Source: Marchantia polymorpha subsp. ruderalis
Taxonomy: Eukaryota > Streptophyta > Marchantiopsida > Marchantiales > Marchantiaceae
Direction: 5' to 3'
Length of the DNA: 64,000 nucleotides
Assembly (NCBI GenBank): GCA_037833965.1
Contig: AP031357.1
Span: 15,210,001 to 15,274,000, forward strand
Shown here in pieces: positions 4,201 to 51,213 of the stretch (positions within the stretch are counted from its first letter, which is position 1; every line of letters begins with the position of its first letter). A program made the position numbers and the translations under genes. The notes under the pieces are model-generated. The model searched no databases, was not told where the DNA came from, and was given only the letters and a program-made list of their open reading frames with translations.

Positions 4201-5996
4201 CTCTGGGAATACTGAGAGTGGATGATGATGATAGCTTCCCCACCTATGACACATATTCGATACTCCATGATCATATATGTCTCGTGTGGAATGGGACTCT
4301 TCACATACTGCGAGGATCCAAACATTCGAGTAATAAAGATAATGCTTAATGTATGTGTGTGTGTGTCTGTGAAAGACAATGAAAGAAAAGTATAGGGAGT
4401 GCATTATGTTTCAAATGTCGAGGTGATTTTTCCGATTGCCACTTCCGGAATATCATAATAATTCCGTAGATTATGAAGTAGAAGCGTCGGCTTAAAGTGA
4501 ATCGTGACAATTTCTATATGGTGAGATGGCGGGTCAACGTTTTTCTCTTCAAGATCTCATTTTCTAAATCTATTAAGTAAATCTTCCTCCTGGATTTGAA
4601 AATATAATCAACTATATACTTAGGTTTCATATTGCTCCACACCGACTTTGGTTGCACCATACGCGGCCGATATGAATTGTTAAGGTTTTATTCGTATTTT
4701 GGCTAGCATTAAATGTGGTCGTGCTATTGACACGTCTTATCTAATTCAAATTTTATAAATATTTGTTTAGAATAACTAAAAATAAGATACTATACATAAT
4801 CTAAGGTAGAAAATTTCAACTAAAAAAACGTCACATTTTTTAATTAGATGGTTTTGAGAACATGTATCCCAGATTGGCACTTTCCTCCTAATCTCAGTAA
4901 CTGTTGCTGGAGAAAGAGGGGAGGTTGACATACGATCCAAGGATCGTTGAGTTTCTTGGTATTAAAATGAATGAAATTAAATAATTAGTGATTATCGTAA
5001 GGTTTTTTTTTTGGGTGATGGTTTAGAAGTACTAATAGTTCATGACGTACAATTTTTTCGAAGACAAGTTGACATTTTTCATTCAAAGGTAAAATATTGA
5101 TTAACACTAGAATGTTTCAAACTTACCTTAGATAGATACAATTTCCATTTGAATTGAATCTGAATGAATGGAAGAAATACAATTCAAATACCAATGGTAG
5201 AAATCAAATTTTATCGCAGAAGTTGCACACTCTATCTACATAAGACGGGGAAAGTACATGATATACGAGTTAAAAGTACTTCTCACATCTTAAGGAGTAT
5301 CAATGATGTTTACAAATGTAATAATGTAACAAACAAACGAACATACATAATACTTCTATCTTCACAAATTTGAAAAAAGACATAGAATGATTGTCACATG
5401 TCAAGAGTTTGCATATTTTATGGACTTTTTGAAGATTTTCTTTCTTGCACACAGGTGTAACCTTCCCATTACATGAGGCATTGAAAAATATTCCACATGA
5501 ATCAAAACGAAAGTGCATCCATTTTATTTAAAGTTGAAGGTTGCATTGAATATGATATGTTAAATCAAATAATTCTTGATATACATGTAAGTAAAAAAAC
5601 ATTAGATAAAAAAAAAAAACATAAAGATCACGATCAGAAATGAACTTGTGACTTATGATTAAATACATATCGCAAGTTCCACGTTTAGAGAAAATGAAAA
5701 AAATATAAGGTTCACATTCTGTAATAAATGTTAGACGACAAATTCTAATTTCTGCTCAGATTTGATGTTGGACTTAACCGAATGTGTTTTCCAAAGTACT
5801 GGTGTCATTCTTTTCAGCTGGAGTTTTTACATGATGAGGTGTCTCTTCCTTTATTGAGCTCACTGTGAGATCATCCCTTCGGTGATTCTCATGACGTCTC
5901 TTAAGTATTAGAGGGACAGTCGAGTTCCCAAGGAAAGAAAAACGTTAGAACAGGAACGAGTTTAAAATAATTTCACATAGACCAGCATGGACAACG
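4201..5996. other. AT-rich intergenic stretch
   Basis: Mostly 65-70% A+T with a short GT run near 4352-4366 and homopolymer A and T runs. The open frames (for example 5164-5373) are short and low in complexity. I see no transposon ends, RNA gene or recognisable coding sequence. Confidence 0.4.
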
Positions 5997-26529: not shown

Positions 26530-26657
26530 CTTTTTAAAATTAGATCCTTCAAGCCTCGTTTGAACACATCCAAGACTTTTGCTTCACTCATATCCATGAT
26601 AGATATTTCAAGATAACGAAATTCTTCAATGTACGCATGGACTTTATGCTTAAAATC
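26530..26657 (-). mobile_element. Fragment of a Ty3/Gypsy gag (fossil)
   Basis: The minus strand shows a retrotransposon gag signature: a V-x-x-Y-I-x-x-F-R-x-L block followed by MDMSEAKVLDVFKRGLKDLI, which fits the conserved M-S-E/D...F-x-x-G-L-K of plant Ty3 gag. It is an isolated, broken piece. It ends exactly where an oppositely oriented LTR (26658-27078) begins, suggesting that the LTR landed in or beside this older element. Confidence 0.55.
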
Positions 26658-27078
26658 TGTAATCATCTTTAGTTAGTTAAAACTAAAGTAGAGGTTAGTC
26701 TAAATGTTGATATAGATACTTTAGCGTGCATTGATCATAAATGTCACGTCAACGATCCACAAGCTTGGTAGGTAGAGAGTAGATGTGTTAGTTGGCAGCG
26801 TCACGTCAGCGATCCATTTGCTTGTTAGGTAATGATTGAGTATGTTAGTAACTGTGTTAGTTGGAAACGTCACGTTAGCAATCCGTGTGCTTACTAGAGT
26901 TATTCGCCACATCATCCACTCACTAGGAGTGGGATGAATGGTGGAGATAAGATCTTATCACCTTGTGCTTCTTGGTGAGAGCTATATATAAGGAAGAGGA
27001 GAACCATTGTTGGTATCTCTCATCTTTAGAGTTTGTGTCCATCTTTGAGTGAACTTCTCTCTAAATCGAGTGAGTCCA
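26658..27078 (+). mobile_element. LTR of family B (Ty3/Gypsy), solo or stranded
   Basis: It starts TGTAATCATCTTTAGTTA and is co-linear with the LTR at 40149-40536 over its whole length at roughly 80% identity by eye. It contains three ~50-65 bp subrepeats with a GTCACGT core and a TATA box (CTATATATAAGG, about 26992) pointing right. No paired internal region follows directly. It may be a solo LTR or the far end of a heavily nested Ty3 B. The ends show no convincing target duplication. Confidence 0.75.
26733..26890. repeat. Three subrepeats inside LTR B (copy 1)
   Basis: The motif YCACGTYAGCRATCC(N)TGCTTG..GTA..GTGTTAGTTG recurs three times with drift. The same triplet is present in the other LTR B, so it pre-dates the split of the two copies. 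Such U3 subrepeats with a CACGT core commonly act as enhancers in plant LTRs (family knowledge). Confidence 0.65.
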
Positions 27079-28180: not shown

Positions 28181-28722
28181 TTATGTTTTTTTTTGCCTCT
28201 ATGTTGACAAGTCTGGATCTCGGCCGTGCAATAGAAAATATGGTGAGAAGGAAGTCAAGGATGTTTGACAAATGAATCGGTATCTCATGGCCAACCGTGA
28301 TAACTCAATATCGCAGTCCCCAAGATGACCTTTCTGGAGACCATACTTGCGCAACGCACTCTTCACCGTATGTACAACACGTTCAGCTAAATCATCCGCC
28401 TCTGGAATATCTCGCGACGCGGTCCGATGATCAATCAGCGCCTTGTCACACATGACCTGAAACTCATCCTAAAATTCTATACCTTGATCGGTCAACACCT
28501 TAGCTGGTGCACCAAAGTGACTAAGCATCCTGTCAAAGAAGGCATACACTGTTCCCTCACTCGCTTTGTTAGGTAATGCCACCAACTCAATCCACTCGAA
28601 GAAATGCTCTACCATGACCAACACATACAGATGTTGTCGTACAGTCAAAGGTAGTGGTCCAGCAAAGTCCAAACTCCAACGGTAACCCAACCCCATGATG
28701 GGTAATGGATGTAACTCTGGCA

Positions 28723-29494
28723 TGCAACCTCCGGGCTGACTCTCACTCAGGTTTACCTCATATGGCTTTTCGGCAGTTCATCATGATTCTAGAAGACTAG
28801 GATTCCGCATCATACTCATAACCTAAACACCCTCTCACACAATCTCTCAAGGTATCACTCCAACTCATACACTCATCGACACTCTAAGGTAATGAAAATT
28901 TGTCACTCTTTCATATATGAAACAAGTCTCTACATATGAACTCTCCAAACTTGCTTGAGATTCTTTTCCCTACCTCTCTATATATACTATTTGAGAATTT
29001 ACCATAGTAACAAATGGTAATTCTTTTCTAACCTACTTTTACAAAGATAACCCATAGTATGGTTGACTAGTTATCAATATGTGGCAATATGTCATTGGCC
29101 TCCTAAACCTTCTAGATGTTTACTAATCCATAGATTGAGGTGGCGACATGTCATTTGTGCCTTTCCAACTTCTAGAACTTTTCACTTTCCACTAAGTCAA
29201 CATTAGACTTAGTCTCACCAATGGAATACTCCTTACTTTAGTCAAACCAATCAAAACTAAACATGAAGTCCAAAAGTCTTTTCTCTTGGAATCTAGACTT
29301 TTGTACAAGACAAAATAGAAGTGCTCACTCAAATCTTCCAGAATTTCTCTAGTTATTCCGCCAAGTATAGACATTATAGCTAAACTAGCTAGACTTAGTC
29401 ATAACTAGCTAGATTTAGTCATAACTATCATAACCATGATTAACTCCTTGGCTAATTCTAGTTTTATTTCACACATGCAATATCTGGTCTTACA
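28723..29494 (-). mobile_element. Solo LTR, family A, inside Ty3 fossil A (minus orientation)
   Basis: It is 772 bp and on the minus strand reads TGTAAGACCAG...GGTTGCA (TG..CA ends). Both sides carry GGCA (28719-28722 and 29495-29498), a 4 bp target-site duplication. It interrupts the integrase part of the host element. It is co-linear with 32157-32927 in inverted orientation at about 94-95% identity by eye. Confidence 0.9.
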
Positions 29495-32156
29495 GGCATC
29501 AGGGCATTGAACGATGTCATCATCCTATCACAAACTATGCAACGTGATACCAACTGCTGTACTTGAGTATGCATATCACGCGACCAATACTGACCAAGGA
29601 GTAAGCTGTATGTACGTTTCACTCCAAAATTTCCAAACTCTTCATGAGCATGCCTCACAATGCGTGCTCTCTGAGCTAGATGTGGTACTACTTGTACCCT
29701 ACCGTTCTCCCACACTCGGAGAACATGTGATCCCTCCAATCGGTATCTCTTTGCCCGTGGGAGAACACGATCTCGCTCCTTGGCACCCATTGTGCCTGGC
29801 ACCATGCTGATCCGTAGGAACTCCAACACCAATGCATCATCGTGAACATCACACTCATCCACATCACCATCCTCAACCTCAGGATCTGAAGATCGACCAT
29901 CCACTCTCTTACTAGAGTAAGATGTTAGATGATACTCTCTGCTGGAGTCTTCACGTAACCAACACATGAAGGCAGATGCATGCCAACCACACACTATCTC
30001 CTCGTCAACCTCACCATGCCATCTAGCTCCAATGTCATCCTCGTGGCTAGTGCATGGGTTCCGACTCAAACCATCGGCATCCAGGTTCGCAACTCCAAGT
30101 CTATGCACTACTTGAAAGTCATACTCCTGTAAGATGAAAGCCCATCGTGCAAGCTTCCCTATGAGGTTGTCGGACTCCATCAACCACTTGAGCGGCTGAT
30201 GATCAGTAACAATGGTGCGTACTAAACAAGTAACATCTGAAGTGTGCCACAGCCCACACCGCTGCCAAGCACTCTCCCTTGTATGAACTATACCGCGACT
30301 CCGCTGCATTGTTTGAACAACTAGCATCCGCAACCACAAACTCCTTGCCCTTATCATCACGCTGTGTCAAAACCGCTCTAAGTCCCAACATACTCCAATC
30401 AATGTGCAACTAGTATGGATGACCTCTGATAGGTCTCCTCAAGATGGGAGCGGCCACCAACCTGGCCTTGAGCTCAACAAAAGCTCTCTTTTGCTCATCT
30501 CCCCATTGCCACTCCTGATCTGACTTCAGCAACTGGTTCAAAGGCTTGGCTATAGCACTGAATCTCTTCACATACCTTCGGTAGTAGTTTGTCAAACCCA
30601 TGAATGCACGAACTCTACTCACATCTGTGGAACAAGGGTTGCGTGCAATAGCCTTCACGTTTGCTTGCTGAACTCATAAACCACTTGGGTATATCACATG
30701 ACCCAAGTACTCAACCTTCTCCTGGAAGAACTTACACTTCTAGGATGTAACCTCAAATCATGAGCCCCCAACCGCTCAAATAGAATCTGCAAATGTATCT
30801 GGTGTTGCTCCACAATGTCACTAAACACCAAGATATCATCAATGTAACATCTAACAAAATCCAACTCCGCCAGGATTCTATCCATAACTCTGTGAAACTT
30901 GGTAGGTGCATTCTTCAACCCAAAGGGTAAGAATCATCATTGATACAAACAATCCTTGCCGTGGGAGTTGACGCCCCAAAAAGCTGTCTTGGCTTTGTCC
31001 TCCTCCGGCATTGGTTTCCTACCCGAAGATTCAAAGTATTAAAAATCCTCGCATGTTCCACCACATCGAAGATCTCCTCAAATGTAGGCATGGCATACTT
31101 ATCGGACTTCGTCGGCCTATTGATAGGACGGTAGTCTTCACACATGCGCCTATCCATGTAGTTGCCATATACATCCTTCTTCACCGGCATGACAGTGGAT
31201 GACGCATACTCACCATGCGATAACTCCACTAGTTCGGACTCCAGTAGGTCCAACAGTTTACTCCGAATCAAATCCCTCTCCATCTCACTGTATCGATAAG
31301 GACAACGGAAGATTGGCGTATCACTAGCCAATTCTATCCGTATACTCGGTCCAATCAAAGCATCCAACTCCTTCATACCGTCAATACTTTCAACTCCTTC
31401 ATACTCCTATCATCTTGTAGGAATTGTGTCAACTGTCGCCTCTCTCCTCCTGTGATCTGGGAACCTATCAATGGTTTCCATTCCTCCATAGTCACACTAG
31501 AGGAAGGCGATACTCTCACTTATTGCTACATCACATCCTCCAAAGAAGGGGTCTCTGTACCTTCCTTCGTAGCAACCTCTGCATGGGAAACCTCTTTAAC
31601 TACATGGGCTGCAACTTTGGCAAGTCCTCTCGTCATGTCCCATGAACTTCAAGGATGATGAATATCTTGCATGTCGCCCCAGCCATTGCCAATACCGTCT
31701 CGGTAGGCAATAAGCTAACAAATGATGTAATAACCACCAAATCAACGCACAAACGACGTTGCTCGACTAAACCCAAGCTCACAATCCACGTTAAACAGTT
31801 CAGGTCCATAACCTGACCCAAACCTGACAACGCGAAGCCTCAGAAACTGAAGATGCTGAGGTCACACCAGTCATAAACCCCATCGCACACTCTCTCTCGT
31901 CAGCGTTGGGTTCCACCAATTGATGTACTGCAGAATCTCAAAGTAGCCCAGGTCTATCATCACGATATGCATGTGTTGCTGGATAACTAACCAACGTAGG
32001 TAAAGCCATCCGAGGCTGACCTACACGGTTCACCAACGCCTTCACATGTGTGGCACTCGCAAAATAGGAAAAATCATCTCCCTCGTAAGACGTGGAAGTG
32101 CTCACCCCAAGACCCGTAATAGCCGCAAGCCTCTGCTCCAACTGCTCAATCCGGAC

Positions 32157-32927
32157 TGTAAGACCAGATATTGCATATGTGAAATAAAACTAGAATTAGC
32201 CAAGGAGTTAATCATGGTTAAGATAGTTATGACTAAATCTAGCTAGTTATGACTAAGTCTAGCTAGTTTAGCTATAATGTCTATACTTGGCGGAATAACT
32301 AGAGAAGTTCTAAAAGATTTGAGTGAGCACTTCTATTTTGTCTTGTACAAAAGTCTAGATTCCAAGAGAAAAGACTTTTGAACATCATGTTTAGTTTTGA
32401 TTGGTTTGACTAAAGTAAGGAGTATTCCATTGGTGAGACTAAGTCTAATGTTGACTTGGTGGAAAGTGGAAGTTCTAGAAGTGGGAAAGGCACAAATGAC
32501 ATGTCGCCACCTCAATCTAGGGATTAGTAAACATCTAGAAGGTTTAGGGAGCCAATGGCATGTTGCCACATATTGATAACTAGTCAACCTTATTATGGTT
32601 TATCTTCGTAAAAGTAAGTTAGATAGAAATTACCATTTGTTACTATGGTAAATTCTCAAGTAGCATATATAGAGAGGTAGGGAAGAGCCTCTCAAGCAAT
32701 TTTGGAGAGTTCATATGTAGAGACTTGTTTCATATATGAAAGAGTGACGAATTTTCAGTACCTTGGAGTGTCGATGAGTGTTTGAGTTGGAGTGATACCT
32801 TGAGAGATTGTGTGAGAGGGTGTTTAGCTTATGAATATGATGCGGAATCCTAGTCTTCTAGAATCATGATGAGCTACTGAAAAGCTATCTAAGGTAAACC
32901 TGAGTGAGAGTCAGCCCGGAGGTTGCA
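32157..32927 (+). mobile_element. Solo LTR, family A, inside Ty3 fossil A (plus orientation)
   Basis: It is 771 bp with TGTAAGACCAG at the left and GGTTGCA at the right. The flanks are GGAC and GGAT, a possible 4 bp target duplication with one change. A TATA-like CATATATAGAG lies at about 32659. It is separately inserted from the copy at 28723-29494 and oriented the opposite way. It lies between the gag and pol parts of the host element. Confidence 0.85.
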
Positions 32928-34199
32928 GGATAGCCGTAGCGCTCTCTGTGGCTGAAGTAGTAGTCACTACGGTACATTCAATGGCACCGGTACCTCTACC
33001 ACCTCGGCCTCGTGAAGCATCACCGCCACGGCCTCTACCTCCAGACCTCAACTCCGGATGAAGGTCAAAACAATGCTTTCGAGGATGACCCGCTCGACCA
33101 CAATGATCACACATCATCTGTGCTGGCTGTGGTCTAGCCTATGAAGTTTGTTCCCCTCTATTCTGAGGACAATCCTTCCTCATATGACCGCCTGCGCATG
33201 TCCAACATGATGGTCCTTGTGGTTGATCCCAGGTAGTGGTCGTGTCCCTCGCAAATGAAGACGTCATCACCCTCTCCTCCACCATGTTAAACTCAATCTT
33301 CTTAGAAAGAGCAAACACATGGGCTAATGTGGATGATGCGTCGCTCATGAGAGTAGCATCACGAACTCGCCTCCGCAACTCTCTGTCCAGAATCCGATAC
33401 CAATATTGGATAGCTTGTGCCTCAGTCACACCGTGAGTAATTGAGATCAGCCGTCACATATGAGTGTATGCCTCACAAAGACTCTCACCAGTCTTCTGCT
33501 CGAACTCCTGGAGACTCCTCAACTTCTCCGTCTTCACTCCCTGATAGTTCTTCCTCAACCTCTTGAAGAACTCAAGAATGGAGCTAAATGAAGGTACGCC
33601 CCTAACCTCTCCACTCGTGCCGCCACCAGCAATGCTAACCGTACTGCTACAGGTACTTGCACCAGTTGCGCCAACTCCTCCACTAGTACTCTCGCTGACG
33701 CTACTACTAGCACCTCCACTAATGCTGCTACTTGCATCTCCACTGGTACCCACATCACCATGGATAATGGATAAGTAATTTGGAGACCAATGACGTCTCC
33801 ATGCATCAATCTCTGTAGCATAATCTCTTCCAAACTCATGATAATCGTCCATGTGAAGACCCTTCAAATGCTGAAATAACTCCTTCCACACAAAAAAGTG
33901 TGTGAACAACGTGGGATTACGTAGAAACTACATATCACACCACGTGTTAAAATTCTGAATAAAAATCATCGAGCTCGATGGTGCCCATTGCATCGGAGTA
34001 CCGTCGAGGGCCCTTCACGGCCCAGTACATCCCGTTTATGTCCCAAATCAATGGGCTTGGTACAGTGGATGATGTGACCACCAAAAACTCTGTGTCTGCA
34101 ACATCCTGGTCCTTCTCCGCAAAAACTGGCAAGATAGATGAAGGTAGCCGATACCTCAACCCACTCCGCATATATCCACCGCGGTCTTCAACAAGACCA

Positions 34200-35000
34200 C
34201 TAAATTGCTCCGTGATGACAAAAACTCAAATGGCACCACTGCCAGATCTCCACCCAATAACCCCTGCACCTGACGTCGTGCCGCACTAAGCTAATCTAGC
34301 TGTACTAGCTAAGGGATATGGGCAACCTAACCTGTCATCACCGCAAGATGACTCTCACGGTCTACTGATCATCACTCCAGTCTCACCGTGAGAGAAACAT
34401 AGATAGGCCGGCCGGTGATCAAGTTCAGCCTCGCTATCGACAGCACATAGGAGTAAAACTACTCCGGAAATCAGCGTCACCCCAACACAGGCGCGCACGA
34501 GGAAGCAAGACTCGAGAGAATCCAAACACAAGCAAACAACTAGCAACGACTCTCGGGTCTAAAAGAAACATAGCTCAAAACAAGAAAACACACACAGGAT
34601 ATCGCATTGCATCGCAATCCCGATTCGCTCTCCATCGCCCGCTATCACCTTCTGCCTCCAACGCCTACGATGCACTCTTCTACCAAGTCGCAAAGAGATT
34701 CTCTAATCGGGGTCACACGCCACCTCAATGAACACACTAAGCACTGAAAGCTTAATATGGTTTTGATCACGTCATATATGTATAAATACAATGCTCTCCA
34801 TACCGTCAAGTCTATAGTGAGTGAGACCGGATACAAACTCTCAGTCCCTTGAGAAATAAACACTTTCCTTAAAAAAATATTATTTTTTTCAAGGGCATCG
34901 AGGATTGGAGTGATACATCACGTGGAAAGGGATGGAAAGGTGCAAGTTTGCTTCAGTATGGATTCACCTATAACGGTTCTATTATATGTTAGCTTTTGAG
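34200..35000. other. Leader or LTR-like sequence beside Ty3 fossil A, unresolved
   Basis: This is the side where the 5' leader and LTR of the minus-strand element should lie. A short inverted pair (ACTCTCACGG and CCGTGAGAG) and a TATA-like stretch near 34771-34787 are present, but no matching partner LTR was found near 28.1 kb. I cannot define ends. Confidence 0.3.
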
Positions 35001-36350
35001 CTCTACTTTTCATGTCGGAACGTGATGATCGTCGTTTGTACATGATATGTTTGGATATGCATGGAAGGAGACAATTGCCTCAGTACACCACGGATGAACT
35101 TGGGCCTAATGCATATACACAATCACATATGATTGCTGAAGGGCTTATAACTGACAAGGATTGAGATTCACCTCAAGACTAGGTCTAAATCTGCGTTTAT
35201 CTGCGCTTGATCTTTATTTAGATACAAGAGTTAACCTATAGCTTCAACCTTTTCACACACACTGCATTTCTAACCACCCAAAACCTTTCGCTTCCTTCAA
35301 TGCCAAAGAGTTAGTAGCCCCTGCTGGAAGAATCAGGTCTCTATTATAACAGCTAGAGCTAAGATCTCAAGCTGAGGCTGTAGAATATGAAGTAGCTGTT
35401 GCGAAGAAATTTTCTGAGTGAGCTCAACTCAACGTTCGAGCTGTCATTATTACTAAAGCTTTGAAAGTCGTGCCAGAGGCTTGACTCAAGTCAGCAGATA
35501 TTATAACGCCGTGATACTTCAGGCACAGCAGCTTGCAGCTTCCACAAGTCAATTTGGCGGTGTTTGTCATCAACCAAGTTCAAAGATGTACCATAGTTAT
35601 GTCTTGAGTATGAGAAAAATCATGCATAGTACAAGTGACAATATGAGACCAGAAACTTGAGCTAAGACCAGGAGAGTGGAAAGAATACCGCCTTCGTGAC
35701 GGTGCTATCCTTTTGCGCTCAAGTTCATGTCAACAACCTAGATTCAGGAACCGTAAAGGATGGTGAGCAAATGCTGAGGAAGTTGAGGTTGTACGGATCT
35801 AGAAAAAATTGAAGGCATTGTGCAAAAATATCATCACATCAAATCGATGCACTGGGCCATCCGTACTGAGGTTTCATTGCTGTGACTCCTTATAGTTTCC
35901 CGGGCCGTATCGTGGGTGTAAATGTTATGACATATCCATTTCAGGTAACATGTGATGATGACGCTGTAATGGATGCAAAGGACTACCTGGAGCCGGAGGT
36001 AAATATGAACCCCAAGTCCAAGAGAGTCAATTAAACAATGTGGTTTTAGAAGACTCCCTACAAGAAAATTCTGCTAATGTTTCTAGAGAAGTTGATTGGG
36101 ATATTAGCAATGCTCTCAAGAACCACAGGTAGAAAATAATTGAGGCTAGTTCATTCATAGTAAAAGTATAGTTCAATTGCTACTGTCACTATTCACCTTG
36201 CTATTGGTATAGTATAAATAGTGAAGAAGTATGTCGCACCTTGAGTTGCACGAATGATAATGAATCATTTGTACACCTAAATGATAGTGAATCATTTAGA
36301 TATTTTATTTTACATGGAAACTGAGATAAGAATCGTCGAGATTATCAGGA
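35001..36350 (+). other. Protein-like but broken, unrecognised stretch
   Basis: Several short plus-strand open stretches look protein-like in composition (for example about 35023-35160 and 35900-36030). They lie in changing frames with interruptions and match no family I know. This could be a decayed host gene or a decayed element, and I propose no function. GC content is higher than the AT-rich DNA on either side of the transposon cluster. Confidence 0.2.
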
Positions 36351-36357
36351 ATATCTG

Positions 36358-36591
36358 ATGGCTTCAGTACACAGAAGTAGTTTAGGCAGAGTCGATCATA
36401 TATCAGCCTTCTATAATCCGTTCTTGACCAACAGCTGCATCGTCAGTATCAACGGCCCATCCACCTCCCGAAACTATCTAGTCTTCAACTACCGAGCCTC
36501 TCGAAACCCATTCGATTTTGATTGGATCAGCTTTCCAAAGTTTTGTGAATCCTCTAAAAGAAACTTCGACGACTCCGTTGTTGTCATTTAG
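36358..36591 (+). other. Open frame of 77 codons, unrecognised
   Basis: ATG to TAG, with no motif, signal peptide or membrane segment. It is Ser/Asn/Phe-rich. It lies downstream of (3' to) the FolB-like frame and on the opposite strand. It may be chance. Confidence 0.12.
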
Positions 36592-36804
36592 ACCAACGAC
36601 TAATGCTTCTTTATTGTGACTCACCTCTGATACTCCCAACTAGCCAAAGTGAGGAAAAGAAACAAAGTTCTTCAATTTGCCTCTCTCTCTCCCGACTCTC
36701 GAGAAAGGCACCCGGAGTTTGTCTTCTTTGAACTTATGTCTGTGGGTTTCTGAATTTAGACGTTGCTCCACGGCTGATAGCAGAGGAGATCATTAGGAAT
36801 TTGA

Positions 36805-37182
36805 CTAACTTCTGCTAACAAAGTCCATAGAGGTTCGGAAGATATCAACACCCTGGCTATCCACAAACCTAGGTATTGGTGGAGTGCATTTGCAAACCCT
36901 GACACGTACGTTCGTTCTTAGCGGATGTGCCACTAACACTTCGCGAGCTATCTCACTAGCAACCTTTACTACCAGATCAGAACTCGGACCTTCCACGATC
37001 TTCTCCACAACACTGGAAAGGTCCGCGTAGTTGACAGAGTCGTTTAGATCGTCAAAACTGTTGCTCGTTTGAAGCTCTAACCATGCATCCACGTTCATCA
37101 AAAATTTCTGTCCAATCTTCAAGCCACCTTTGTACGAGCTCACCGACCGCCTAAACGTCATCCCCGCTAGACCGATAAGTTT
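36805..37182 (-). CDS. Dihydroneopterin aldolase (FolB)-like protein, probably one exon or an intron-less copy
   Basis: FolB splits dihydroneopterin to hydroxymethyl-dihydropterin and glycolaldehyde in folate synthesis, cytosolic in plants. From about 37182 to the stop at 36805-36807 the minus strand is uninterrupted and aligns without gaps, by memory, to Staphylococcus aureus FolB residues 3-106. Key blocks are LAGMTF, LKIGQKFLMNVDAWLEL, DDLNDSVNYADLSSVVEKIV, EGPSSDL, VRVRVCKCTPPIP and GVDIFR. Of the four catalytic positions known in that enzyme, Tyr54 and Lys100 are kept; Glu22 is Gly and Glu74 is Val, and the usual Y-H-G loop is replaced by R-S-V. The frame stays open upstream to about 37370 but without ATG. 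The first in-frame ATG (37159-37161) falls just inside the conserved domain, so either an upstream exon is joined at an AG near 37192 or this is a start-less copy. The likely reading is a decaying retained copy or a diverged, perhaps non-aldolase, paralogue. Both neighbours are retrotransposon fossils. Confidence 0.75.
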   Translation of the reverse strand, partial: KLIGLAGMTFRRSVSSYKGGLKIGQKFLMNVDAWLELQTSNSFDDLNDSVNYADLSSVVEKIVEGPSSDLVVKVASEIAREVLVAHPLRTNVRVRVCKCTPPIPRFVDSQGVDIFRTSMDFVSRS

Positions 37183-37266
37183 AGGACCTCTGCTGAGGAT
37201 CTCTACAACTGTTGCCGGCAACAATTGACACTCTCTCCTCTTGCAATAACGACTGTCAAACCACAA

Positions 37267-37740
37267 TTGATGCGAATTGAAAAGTAAAACTATTAAACCC
37301 GACCGATCTGAAGAACCAAACCTCGACCGAACTTTGATCCAAAACCAAAGAACCGTACCCGATCAATCAAAAGAGAAATTCACCTTCGAACATACACCGA
37401 TATTGAATCACAAAAGCCACGGAACAGATTGTAACATGACAGGTTTAACACACTTTTGCGTGATCCTGCACTACAGGATCACCAACAGAGTTCTTCGAGT
37501 GAAAAAACGTGGTTTTTTCCACTGAAAAACCCATAAGTTTCAACTACTCCACTATCAGCAAACCGTCACAAACATAAGTCGAGCCTAACTCACTGAAGAG
37601 ATTCCGGGTCGACGCTACCGGATCGTTCTACTCACACTACTCTCAACGCACTAGGTTCGACTCAAAGAACTGACGTTCTTCGAGTCGTCTTCAACCCTAT
37701 ACCCTTCGCGACCTGAAATCCTAGCTTGACACTATTTTTA
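37267..37740. other. Short non-TE stretch upstream of the FolB-like frame
   Basis: Moderate GC, with GTTCTTCGAGT-type repeats (about 37491, and again near 37674) and a small hairpin AAAAAACGTGGTTTTTT (about 37502-37518). It could hold an upstream exon or promoter of the FolB-like gene, but no coding start is recognisable. Confidence 0.3.
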
Positions 37741-37744
37741 TTAA

Positions 37745-40148
37745 ATACCGAGTTACATGACAGATGCCTTTTAGTCTCACTAATGCACTAGCTACATTCA
37801 TGGAATTGATGAACGACATCTTTCGCTCTTATGTAGATAAATTTGTCATTGTTTTTCTAGATGATATATTGATGTATAGCAAAACTTTGACTGATCATAG
37901 AGGTTATTCACAAGAATTTATTCAAGTTTTGAGATACTATCAATTGTATGCCAAAGCTTCAAAATGTGAATTTGGCAAATTAGAAGTAGATTACTTGGAT
38001 CATAGAGTTACAGCCGCAGGAATCCAAGTGATAAGTGAGAAGATAGATGCCATTGAGAAATGTACAACATCTGAGTATCAAACTCAATTGAAGAGTTTTC
38101 TAGCGCTCACTAGATTTTATCGTAGATTTTTGAAAGGTTTTGCTCGCCTAGCTCAGACCTTGAGTTCCATGTTAGGGAAAGATCAAAAATGAAGATGAGA
38201 AAAAACTCAAGAGTTAGCTTTTCAAGCATTGAAGATGCTTTGTTACACGCATCTATCCTCAAAAGATATGATCATAACCGTCATATCAAGCTGGAAACTG
38301 ACGCATCAGGTACAATGGTAGCTAGCACACTTCAACAAGAATGGAAGGATGCATGACATCTAGTTGCTTTCTATTCTTGAAAGTTGATGGCGGCGGAACA
38401 AAATTATCACACAACAGAAAGGAAGGACTTGATTATTGTGTTGGCAACCAAACACCGGAAGCATCACTTGGGTGATAAAAAATACGTGATGGAGATCTAT
38501 CATAAATCCTTGGTTTATTTTGAAACTCAGAAGTATCTATCTAAACTATTAATTTGATGGACAAAGTGGCGTCAACGCTTCAACATGAAGATTGTGTATG
38601 TGGAGTATCAGAAGCAACGTGCAGATGTTCTCACACACATGCCTTGTTTGAATCATGTTGTAAAAGTGAAGATTTAAGCAGATTGATGGAGCAAGATGAC
38701 ATATGCCACAAAGTAGTATGAAGAGATCATGAAGGCATTACAAGCTGGAAGGGCAGAGAAAGTTAGAGATTTGGCTGTCTACAAACAGTGTATATTGATT
38801 CCACAAGACCAAGAGTAACGCACAATGATATTATGAGAAAATCATAATACACCAATTGTAGGTCATGTGAGAGTGGAGAAGACCTTAGAGAGCATCCATC
38901 AAGTTTACTTTTGGCCCAAACTATGAGAGAACGTGGAGGCTTATGTTCAAAGTTGTGTTGCTTGTCAATACAACAAGGCAAGTAATCAAATATTAGCTGG
39001 TTCCTTATAGCATCTTCCTAATGTCAAACAGTAATGGGAACATGTCACCATGGATCTTGTATGTGAGTTACCAAAAACTTTGTTAGGAAATGATTCAGTG
39101 GTGGTTTTTGTGGACAAATTGAGCAAGGTGATTCTCATCAGACCAACCACAAAAACAATGATAGCTCCACAACTTGCTCAATTGTACTTAGATGCTATTT
39201 TTGTGAATCATGGATTAAGCAAAGTCTTAATCATTGATAGAAGTATTCGTTTCACTAGTTTGTTTTTGAAAACTTTGTTTAGTTTTTTCAAAACCAAATT
39301 AGCAATGTCAACAACTTACCATCCTCAGACTTATGATTAAACAGAGAGAGCCAATAGATTTTTAGAGGATATGATACAAGCATTCACATTAGAGGAGCAA
39401 GAAGAGTGGGATACTCTTTTGCCTCTTGTGGAATTTGCATATAACAATTTTGTAAATGTATCCACAAAGGTGTCTTCATTTTACTTCATGTATGGTGCTC
39501 ATCTCATTACTTCATCAAGTTTGATGAAATTTTTGAAAGGAGAGGAGTTTTCAACTAAGGTAGTCGCGGTCAACGAGTTGTGGAACATATCCACCGATGC
39601 CTACATCAAGCAAAGAAAAAGTTGTTGATTGCTCAAAATCAATAAAAACAGCATGCTGATGCTTATCGTCATGAAGTTAGTTTTTCAAGTTGAAGATTAT
39701 GCTTGGCTATCCACAACAAATTTATCTCGGGTAGAAACATCAAAGTTTAAACCTAGATTCATTGGTCCTTTTGTAATATTGAAACGTGTTGATGAAGTGT
39801 CATACAAAGTTAAAGCTTCCGTAACATATGAAAATACATCCTTTATTTCACGTGTCACAATTGCAAAAACATGCGCCATGATCAAAACAATTCACGAATC
39901 AACAAGTGTTACCTCCTTTATCAATTTTGATAGTTGATCGATAGGAATTTGAGGTAAAAAAATATCCTCAAGAAACAGATTAGAGGCCATAAGTATTCAA
40001 AGGTAGAGTATTTGGTTCAATAAAAATGATATCCATCATACGAATCAACTTGAAAACTAGCTAAAAATCTAGCTAATGCACAGTTGATAGTTCAAGAATT
40101 TGAATACATGTGCAACAAGGACGTTGTGTCTTAAGACGAAATGAAGTT
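37745..40148 (+). mobile_element. Ty3/Gypsy retrotransposon fossil B, 3' half (broken)
   Basis: In order on the plus strand it holds reverse transcriptase (MPFSLTNALATF and FLDDILMYS, about 37764-38190), an RNase H region (about 38.2-38.7 kb), integrase (LVCELPKTLLGND..VVFVDKLSK and YHPQTYD, about 39050-39600) and an integrase C-terminal region (KFKPRFIGPFVILKR, about 39750). The 3' LTR (40149-40536) follows. Gag and the 5' side are not present next to it. It is broken in many places and AT-rich, hence older than Ty3 A. It may have been fed by the same family as the LTR at 26658-27078. Confidence 0.85.
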
Positions 40149-40536
40149 TGTAACCATCTTTAGTTAATTGGAACTAAAGTAGAGATTACTCTAAATTTTG
40201 ATATAGATCCTTTAGTGTGCACTAGTCATAGTTGCCACGTCAGCGGTCTGCGTGCTTGGTAGGTAGAGAGTAGGTGTGTTAGTTGCCACGTTAGCGATCC
40301 GTGTGCTTGTTGGGTAAGGATTGAGTGTGTTAGTTGGAAGCGCCACGTTAGCAATCCGTGTGTTTGTTAGCGTGATCGACCATGTCATTCATCCACATGA
40401 TATGATCTTATCACCTTGTACTTGTACTTGTTGATGAGAGCTATATAAGAAAGAGTAAAATCATTGTTGATATCTATCATCTTCAAAGTTTATGTTTCTA
40501 TCTTCGAATGAACTCTCTTTAAACCCTAGTGTTACA
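40149..40536 (+). mobile_element. 3' LTR of Ty3 fossil B (family B)
   Basis: TGTAACCATCTTTAGTTA at the start and CTAGTGTTACA at the end give TG..CA termini. It contains three ~50 bp subrepeats with GCCACGTTAGCGATCC (about 40231-40372) and a TATA box (CTATATAAG, about 40441). It follows the integrase end of Ty3 B directly. Confidence 0.85.
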
Positions 40537-50420: not shown

Positions 50421-51213
50421 TGTAATATAGGAACTTTTTTTTGTATGTGTGAAGTAGTTGTTAGAAGAAGTGAATGAATACATAACGGTAAGTTTATTAT
50501 AACTAAATCTAGTTATTATGTCTATATTTGATTGAATAATTAGAGTAGCTTTAGAAATTGTGAGTGAGCTCTGCTCTTTTGTCTCTTGAAAAATTTAACT
50601 TTCAAGAAAAAAGATTTTTGATTATATGATTAATTTTGATTGGTTTAATTAAGTAATTGAAATTTTATTGATTAAACTAGATCCAAAAGTTGACTTAGTG
50701 TTAAGTGGAAGTTTAGAAGTTTGAAAGTCTCAAATGACATGTAGCACCTCAATTTAGGAATTATGAAACTTCTAGAATGTTTAGTTAGACCAATGGCATC
50801 TTGCCACGTATTGAAAATTAGTCCAACCTAGTATAGTTTATATTTTAAATAGTAAGTTAAATAATGACTACCATTTGTTATTATCGTAATTTCTCAAATA
50901 ACTAAAGTAGAGAGTTGGAGAATAAAACTCTCCAACTCTCTACTTTAGTTATTTGAGAAATTAAGATAATAACAAATGGTAGTCATTATTTAACTTACTA
51001 TTTAGAGAGTTCATTGTGTGAATATTTGTTTCATCAATATAAGGCAAAGCTACACTATCATCATATGTGATTGATTGGAGTAATAGACTGAGAGTTTGTG
51101 TGAGAAGTTGTTTAAGAAGTGTACCAATTGAAAAATCTTTACATTCTAAAACCATGATATACTGCCAAAACTTTATCCAAAATAAACATGAGTGAGAATA
51201 AGCCTGGCAGTCA
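50421..51213 (+). mobile_element. Solo LTR, family A, older copy nested in copia fossil 2
   Basis: It is co-linear with the 32157-32927 LTR from TGTAATATAGGAAC to AGCCTGGCAGTCA, with shared words ATGTCTATA, GATTGGTTT, AAATGACATGT, ACCATTTGTTA and GAGTGAGAAT. It is much more diverged (perhaps 25% by eye) and carries an inverted duplication (50846-51004). No clear target duplication remains. Confidence 0.8.
50846..51004. repeat. 76 bp inverted duplication with 7 nt spacer
   Basis: The left arm 50846-50921 and right arm 50929-51004 are reverse complements with one mismatch, spacer ATAAAAC. The other two LTR A copies have only the left-arm sequence at this place, so the right arm is a derived, inverted copy made within this LTR. 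Confidence 0.95.

Follow-up and report, generated by a model that had tools for sequence, protein, structure and literature searches.

The window analysed here comprises 64,000 nucleotides of the genome of the liverwort Marchantia polymorpha subsp. ruderalis (C8:15210001-15274000; positions given without a contig refer to this stretch), and the genome searched comprises 241.5 Mb in 9 contigs. On its minus strand, the window carries a frame similar to FolB, the dihydroneopterin aldolase, which is part of a single LTR retrotransposon and occupies its leader, bounded by the LTR (from 37762) on one side and a gag-like region on the other. Listed from the LTR inwards, the features of this element are:

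37489..37762, minus strand: 5' LTR of the host retrotransposon, starting TGTCATG, with an approximate inner end (similarity to relatives)
37228..37377, minus strand: 5'UTR piece of a glycine-rich RNA-binding protein gene (GRP, an RRM gene; C3:28604752-28604910), 83% over 159 columns
37148..37185, minus strand: FOLB exon A, 3' part (parental PKLIDQAVAAFRR), 76.6% over 47 nt, a match that is weak alone (E 0.003), and exon structure
37114..37147, minus strand: FOLB exon B, fused directly to exon A without an intron (exon structure)
37013..37113, minus strand: FOLB exon C, 3' part, 87% over 101 nt against the C3 gene
36805..37012, minus strand: FOLB exon D, coding as far as the TAG, with Glu74 changed to Val, 80% together with the 3'UTR against the C3 gene
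36693..36804, minus strand: FOLB 3' untranslated piece, no poly(A), 111 aligned columns with 23 mismatches and 1 gap
36425..36687, minus strand: KEG-like piece (C8:21146542-21146804) with two in-frame stops, 85.6% over 263 nt
34892..35945, plus strand: further KEG-like pieces (34892-34953 and 35743-35945), inverted with respect to the donor (donor comparison)
33139..34856, minus strand: gag-like region, frames broken in the window, 82.7-87.6% against seven of eight relatives
32156..32927, no strand assigned: later insertion of ~773 nt, whose flanks are contiguous in the relatives C9, C8b and C3b
28198..32040, minus strand: pol region, with RNase H and integrase zinc-binding and core domains in pieces (PF17917, PF17921, PF00665)

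The FolB-like frame and its parental genes

From stop to stop, the frame extends over 36805-37362 (185 codons); read from a TTG start, it is open over 36805-37266, of which 36805-37185 is the FOLB-derived part. Its first in-frame ATG would give a product of 118 residues. It matches the FolB family (PF02152) in hmmscan with an E-value of 7.3e-20 and 72 bits, above the curated cut-off of 31.8, and is aligned to positions 20-112 of the 113 in the profile, positions 1-19 being absent. A phmmer search with the frame returned 13 PDB sequences at E <= 0.001, every one of them named dihydroneopterin aldolase, with 1sql_A on top (6e-14). The first-pass annotation, which had described an uninterrupted minus-strand FolB-like frame and proposed an HMM search as its check, was right on this point.

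Glu22, Tyr54, Glu74 and Lys100 (S. aureus numbering), which we take to be the catalytic positions of this enzyme, are half represented in the window frame (two of the four). Alignments to 8su7 and 5f3m, read by eye, show that the equivalents of Tyr54 and Lys100 are retained and that a Val occupies the position of Glu74, as had been annotated; both alignments start past the Glu22 position. The annotated Gly in place of Glu22 turned out to be something else: the Glu22 codon was deleted with 29 others, and Gly is aligned at position 22 because this deletion displaced a linker residue of exon B, which rules out an active site remodelled by substitution there. The annotated alignment to FolB also failed at the start of the frame, where the first 24 FOLB-derived residues correspond to parental exons A and B and lie ahead of the FolB domain.

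A FolB profile search of the whole genome gave six matches: the window, two exons each of a gene on C3 and a gene on C4, and, on C1, a piece similar to exon C that scores weakly and does not reach the cut-off. The C3 and C4 FOLB genes have four exons and three introns each, every donor site being GT and every acceptor site AG; as gene models predicted from the sequence alone, each would be spliced into one open protein of 200 residues, and the equivalents of Glu22, Tyr54, Glu74 and Lys100 are all present in both (by eye from the alignment). A sole FOLB gene in this species is ruled out by these two intron-bearing genes, and a reading of exons A and B as untranslated was dropped, the spliced parent being one open frame through all four exons.

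Comparison of intron positions with the parents, another check that had been proposed, shows that the window copy is intronless. It spans 37185-36693, from inside exon A via B, C and D into the 3'UTR, and joins A to B and C to D at the exact splice points; the B-C join falls within the deletion and is kept in four relatives of the element (C1a, C1b, C7 and C9). Exactly 30 codons (90 nt) are deleted in frame between ...KI, in exon B, and GQKF, in exon C. The residues preceding the gap match exon B, and the deletion takes the codon for Glu22 along with the first strand of FolB, so a complete FolB domain with that strand and the Glu22 loop is not present in the frame. The other copies of the capture carry deletions, a truncation or a frameshift in the same FOLB stretch: C1b and C7 have a different in-frame deletion of 17 codons, C1a is out of frame and C9 is cut off. 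A gap of 6 nt in the window frame is also seen in relatives. Exon D with the 3'UTR occurs at three genomic places, namely C3, C4 and the window, and the window is the one copy found holding both halves of FOLB. That the FOLB piece came from RNA is thus supported by nearly direct evidence.

The carrier retrotransposon and its copies

A DNA search with 36400-37720 gave at least 55 matches among the best 40 of 468 candidates, many of them to a repeat family. Sixteen genomic stretches were compared, nine of which are element copies with LTR and leader (the window, C1a, C1b, C7, C9, C8b, C3b, C3c and C2); counts out of nine refer to these copies, which are a sample of those in the genome, further ones being present. 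The other seven stretches are the two FOLB genes, the GRP and KEG-like donors, and C3d, C2b and C3f, whose similarity is concentrated around the LTR and which do not enter the counts.

The carrier is, by its RNase H and integrase domains, classed as a Ty3-like LTR retrotransposon. The matches to RNase H (PF17917), H2C2 (PF17921) and rve (PF00665) follow in this order on the minus strand of the window, and 32040-28198 shares two blocks of 89% identity with sequence upstream of the C3b LTR; an RT-like frame at 30915-31406 had no Pfam match. LTR and leader of the window are 67-70% identical to those of C1a, C1b, C9 and C8b. The identity in the gag-like region (34856-33208) covers part or most of it in seven of the eight relatives, with no match in C2, and Retrotrans_gag (PF03732) matches the gag-like frame of C8b weakly (E 0.02, below the cut-off), a frame that is uninterrupted over more than 740 codons.

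The terminal direct repeats of the family can be seen in C8b, which extends from local position 4245 of the C8b stretch to C8:12190970 and carries GRP and KEG-like pieces: its LTR recurs ~11 kb downstream. C8b was probably inserted recently, because its two LTRs are 100% identical over 292 nt. No second LTR or 3' end of the element was found within the window, and no primer-binding site, polypurine tract or target-site duplication was recognised in the LTR edges of C8b and the window. The window copy also holds a second, inverted copy of the ~773-nt insertion at 28723-29495; the two are 94.6% alike, lie in the pol and gag-pol part of the element, and their sites are empty in relatives. A third relative of this insertion, 67-68% alike, lies at 50510-51207.

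The first-pass annotation had placed the FolB-like frame between two retrotransposons. It lies inside one, whose LTR adjoins a plus-strand RT fragment of another element (37761-38192), and a simple retrogene between two fossils is ruled out, as other copies of the element carry FOLB exons in the same position. A direct repeat, 74% alike and ~13.5 kb apart (40144-40523 and 26653-27065), flanks the element on both sides and perhaps represents remnants of the terminal repeats of an outer element.

Two element copies with FOLB pieces, C1a and C1b, are held by C1 (5.59 Mb). This contig is probably the liverwort U or V chromosome, because the sole BPC-type match (PF06217) across the genome lies on it. 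BPCU has a V-linked counterpart, BPCV. The feminizer BPCU is described on the U chromosome of M. polymorpha, the genic parts of U and V being given as 4.5 and 7.5 Mb (PMC9516144).

Other host genes in the leader

The GRP piece is present in all nine element copies; its donor ORF (PF00076, E 6e-22) starts just downstream of the matched 5'UTR, and in the window 41 unassigned nt separate it from the FOLB piece. FOLB pieces were found by BLAST at the same place in five of the nine copies. At least some of the KEG-like piece, likewise in 5/9, derives from a gene that we take to be KEG-like on account of its ORFs with a protein kinase domain (PF00069) and SH3_15 repeats (PF18346); a PDB search with this piece produced no informative match (best E 0.028). 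Only 5 nt, without poly(A), separate the FOLB 3'UTR from the KEG-like piece. All host pieces are in sense with the element, except for the KEG-like parts in a segment of the window copy that includes 34892-35643, which is inverted relative to C8b, C3b, C3c and C2.

These four copies align to the window only as far as 37161, at most ~25 nt of exon A being left in them, and most of FOLB is replaced by a stretch of 606 nt (local 4870-5475 of the C8b stretch). The source of this stretch was not found among its five genomic places, four of which are the same copies and the fifth C2:23975504-23976385. In C7, C1a and C1b, exon C is followed by 2.6 kb with multi-copy matches and no single-copy source among the best 40 of 147 candidates. 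The FOLB piece of C9 ends in exon C and gives way to a piece of ~970 nt (local 5072-6043 of C9:7574500-7584400) that is 98% identical to the 5' end region of a patatin-like gene at C8:20080902 (PF01734, E 3e-24; local 893-1861 of that locus). This gene is the likely source of the piece, because there is no other element sequence within 2.6 kb of it. Two further LTR matches (C8:10508678 and C7:9257500) also have parts of the patatin-like piece in their vicinity.

Origin, function and comparison with known systems

Intron loss at exact points, the identities of the pieces, their presence in several copies, the deletion and the decay can be read directly from the copies, and we are highly confident in the following reading of them: the frame is a decayed, transduced FOLB fragment, captured from spliced mRNA by an LTR retrotransposon, largely open by chance and most likely without a role in folate synthesis. 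An intronless host gene piece inside an element, in several of its copies, is what a transduced gene looks like, and the capture that the first-pass annotation had offered as possible proves correct and can now be specified. Reverse transcription in the Ty3-like element would have covered its own RNA and a spliced FOLB mRNA, the two most likely being joined when the template was switched inside the virus-like particle; the element would also have gained sense pieces of the GRP 5'UTR and the KEG-like gene, and been amplified with all of these carried as passengers in the leader that separates its 5' LTR from gag. The window copy would then have decayed through the in-frame deletion of 30 codons, with the first FolB strand and Glu22, and the change of Glu74 to Val, and also had part of its leader inverted, received the two ~773-nt elements and lost its 3' end; its frame would have stayed open largely by chance, most likely with no folate role. 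Switching with packaged host mRNAs, a process described for plant elements (PMC13317346), would fit exons that are spliced, pieces that abut one another in sense orientation without poly(A), and a position common to several copies. On the other side, template switching leaves no unique scar, and the 41 unassigned nt between the GRP and FOLB pieces also count against this reading.

The first-pass annotation had suggested either a retained duplicate without folate function or a paralogue with a new role, and we consider it improbable that the frame is expressed and was kept after capture for a FolB-like protein with altered or no catalysis, for example one joining FolB oligomers or binding pterins. 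The frame is open across all FOLB-derived codons, 121 of which are comparable, and both the 6-nt gap shared with relatives and the 90-nt deletion are in frame. The proposed comparison of dN/dS with the parent, run as a codon model on the window frame and the genes on C3 and C4, gave a window-branch omega of 0.60 over 121 codons and 0.56 over the 102 domain codons; however, omega = 1 was not rejected (2 delta lnL 2.08 and 2.10), significant constraint on the frame is not supported, and the window branch did not differ significantly from the other branches (2 delta lnL 0.4, 121 codons). In simulation, the chance that a neutral frame shows no stop was 0.21-0.35 at 40-63 substitutions, 63 being the number of differences between the window and C3. 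The chance of no frameshift was 0.08-0.21, from the frameshift rate of four stretches of the window copy (14 per 354 mismatches). By our own estimate, an open and unshifted neutral frame has a joint chance of about 2-7%, which is mildly unusual and overstates the case for function, because the frame was picked for being open. Against retention stand also the missing first strand, native start and Glu22, the changed Glu74, the 2 stops in 87 codons of the adjoining KEG-like piece of the same copy, the damaged sister copies and the two FOLB genes with all four residues.

A processed FOLB retrogene of LINE type, landed by chance inside the LTR element, would account for the precise absence of introns, and insertion into an ancestral element before its amplification would remain compatible with the data. 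We regard it as very unlikely: FOLB exons at the same place in 5/9 copies would put the insertion before the separation of these copies, other host pieces in sense flank FOLB, and the hallmarks of such retrogenes were not found, the FOLB 3'UTR meeting the KEG-like piece within 5 nt without poly(A) and target duplications having been sought by eye in the junctions. Capture of genomic DNA, in the style of Pack-MULEs or Helitrons or by recombination, with later intron loss, is hardly credible, since across the copies all three introns are absent precisely at their splice sites and the carrier has LTRs, RNase H and integrase, although the GRP and KEG-like pieces, each from one continuous donor stretch, cannot tell RNA from DNA, and C1a, C1b and C7 diverge at the end of exon C with a few bases that resemble both exon D and the beginning of the intron.

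Beyond capture of FOLB from its mRNA, it is conceivable, and we put it forward tentatively, that the leader is prone to capture: transcripts or gene ends from four or more host genes (GRP, FOLB, KEG-like and patatin-like) would have entered the lineage one after another directly upstream of gag, with later losses or exchanges among copies. Some of these captures may be recent, because the patatin-like piece is 98% identical to its likely source, and the FOLB cargo of the window may still yield a short, catalytically dead FolB-like protein or small RNAs against host FOLB. If confirmed, such a leader would make the order and place of capture readable from one family. The case adds a liverwort to the examples of LTR retrotransposons that transduce host genes; the missing introns testify to an RNA template, and a single genome contains the donors, a recent copy and decayed ones. 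A further lesson is that a frame may be intact, show altered active-site residues and still be a fragment left by capture, with a deletion that mimics a substitution. Among the papers listed by a literature search, none points to capture of FOLB by a retrotransposon, or to gene capture of this kind in Marchantia or liverworts, although such a case may still have been published.

Compared with plant FolB (PF02152; 1sql_A), the window frame is homologous across most of the domain and shares the equivalents of Tyr54 and Lys100, but lacks the first strand, the native start and Glu22, and has Val for Glu74. Host genes inside LTR retrotransposons are reported from rice (672), sorghum (1,343) and maize (424); in that report, a higher share of the rice genes is described as pseudogenes under neutral selection, whereas more constraint and expression are given for sorghum (PMC3726574), which counts against a non-functional reading. 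In contrast to these sets, a single family was traced here piece by piece, with intron-level evidence for one piece. The closest known case is the maize LTR retrotransposon Bs1, described with three transduced host gene segments, of a proton ATPase, a xylan endohydrolase and a beta-1,3-glucanase (PMC13317346). The chimeric gene of Bs1 is reported there to be transcribed and translated. Bs1 and the present element are both LTR elements in which parts of three host genes, none of them complete, form a mosaic; here, however, the host is a liverwort, the cargo consists of a GRP 5'UTR, FOLB and a KEG-like gene, and the copies still have gag-like and pol sequence and differ from one another in the cargo that they carry.
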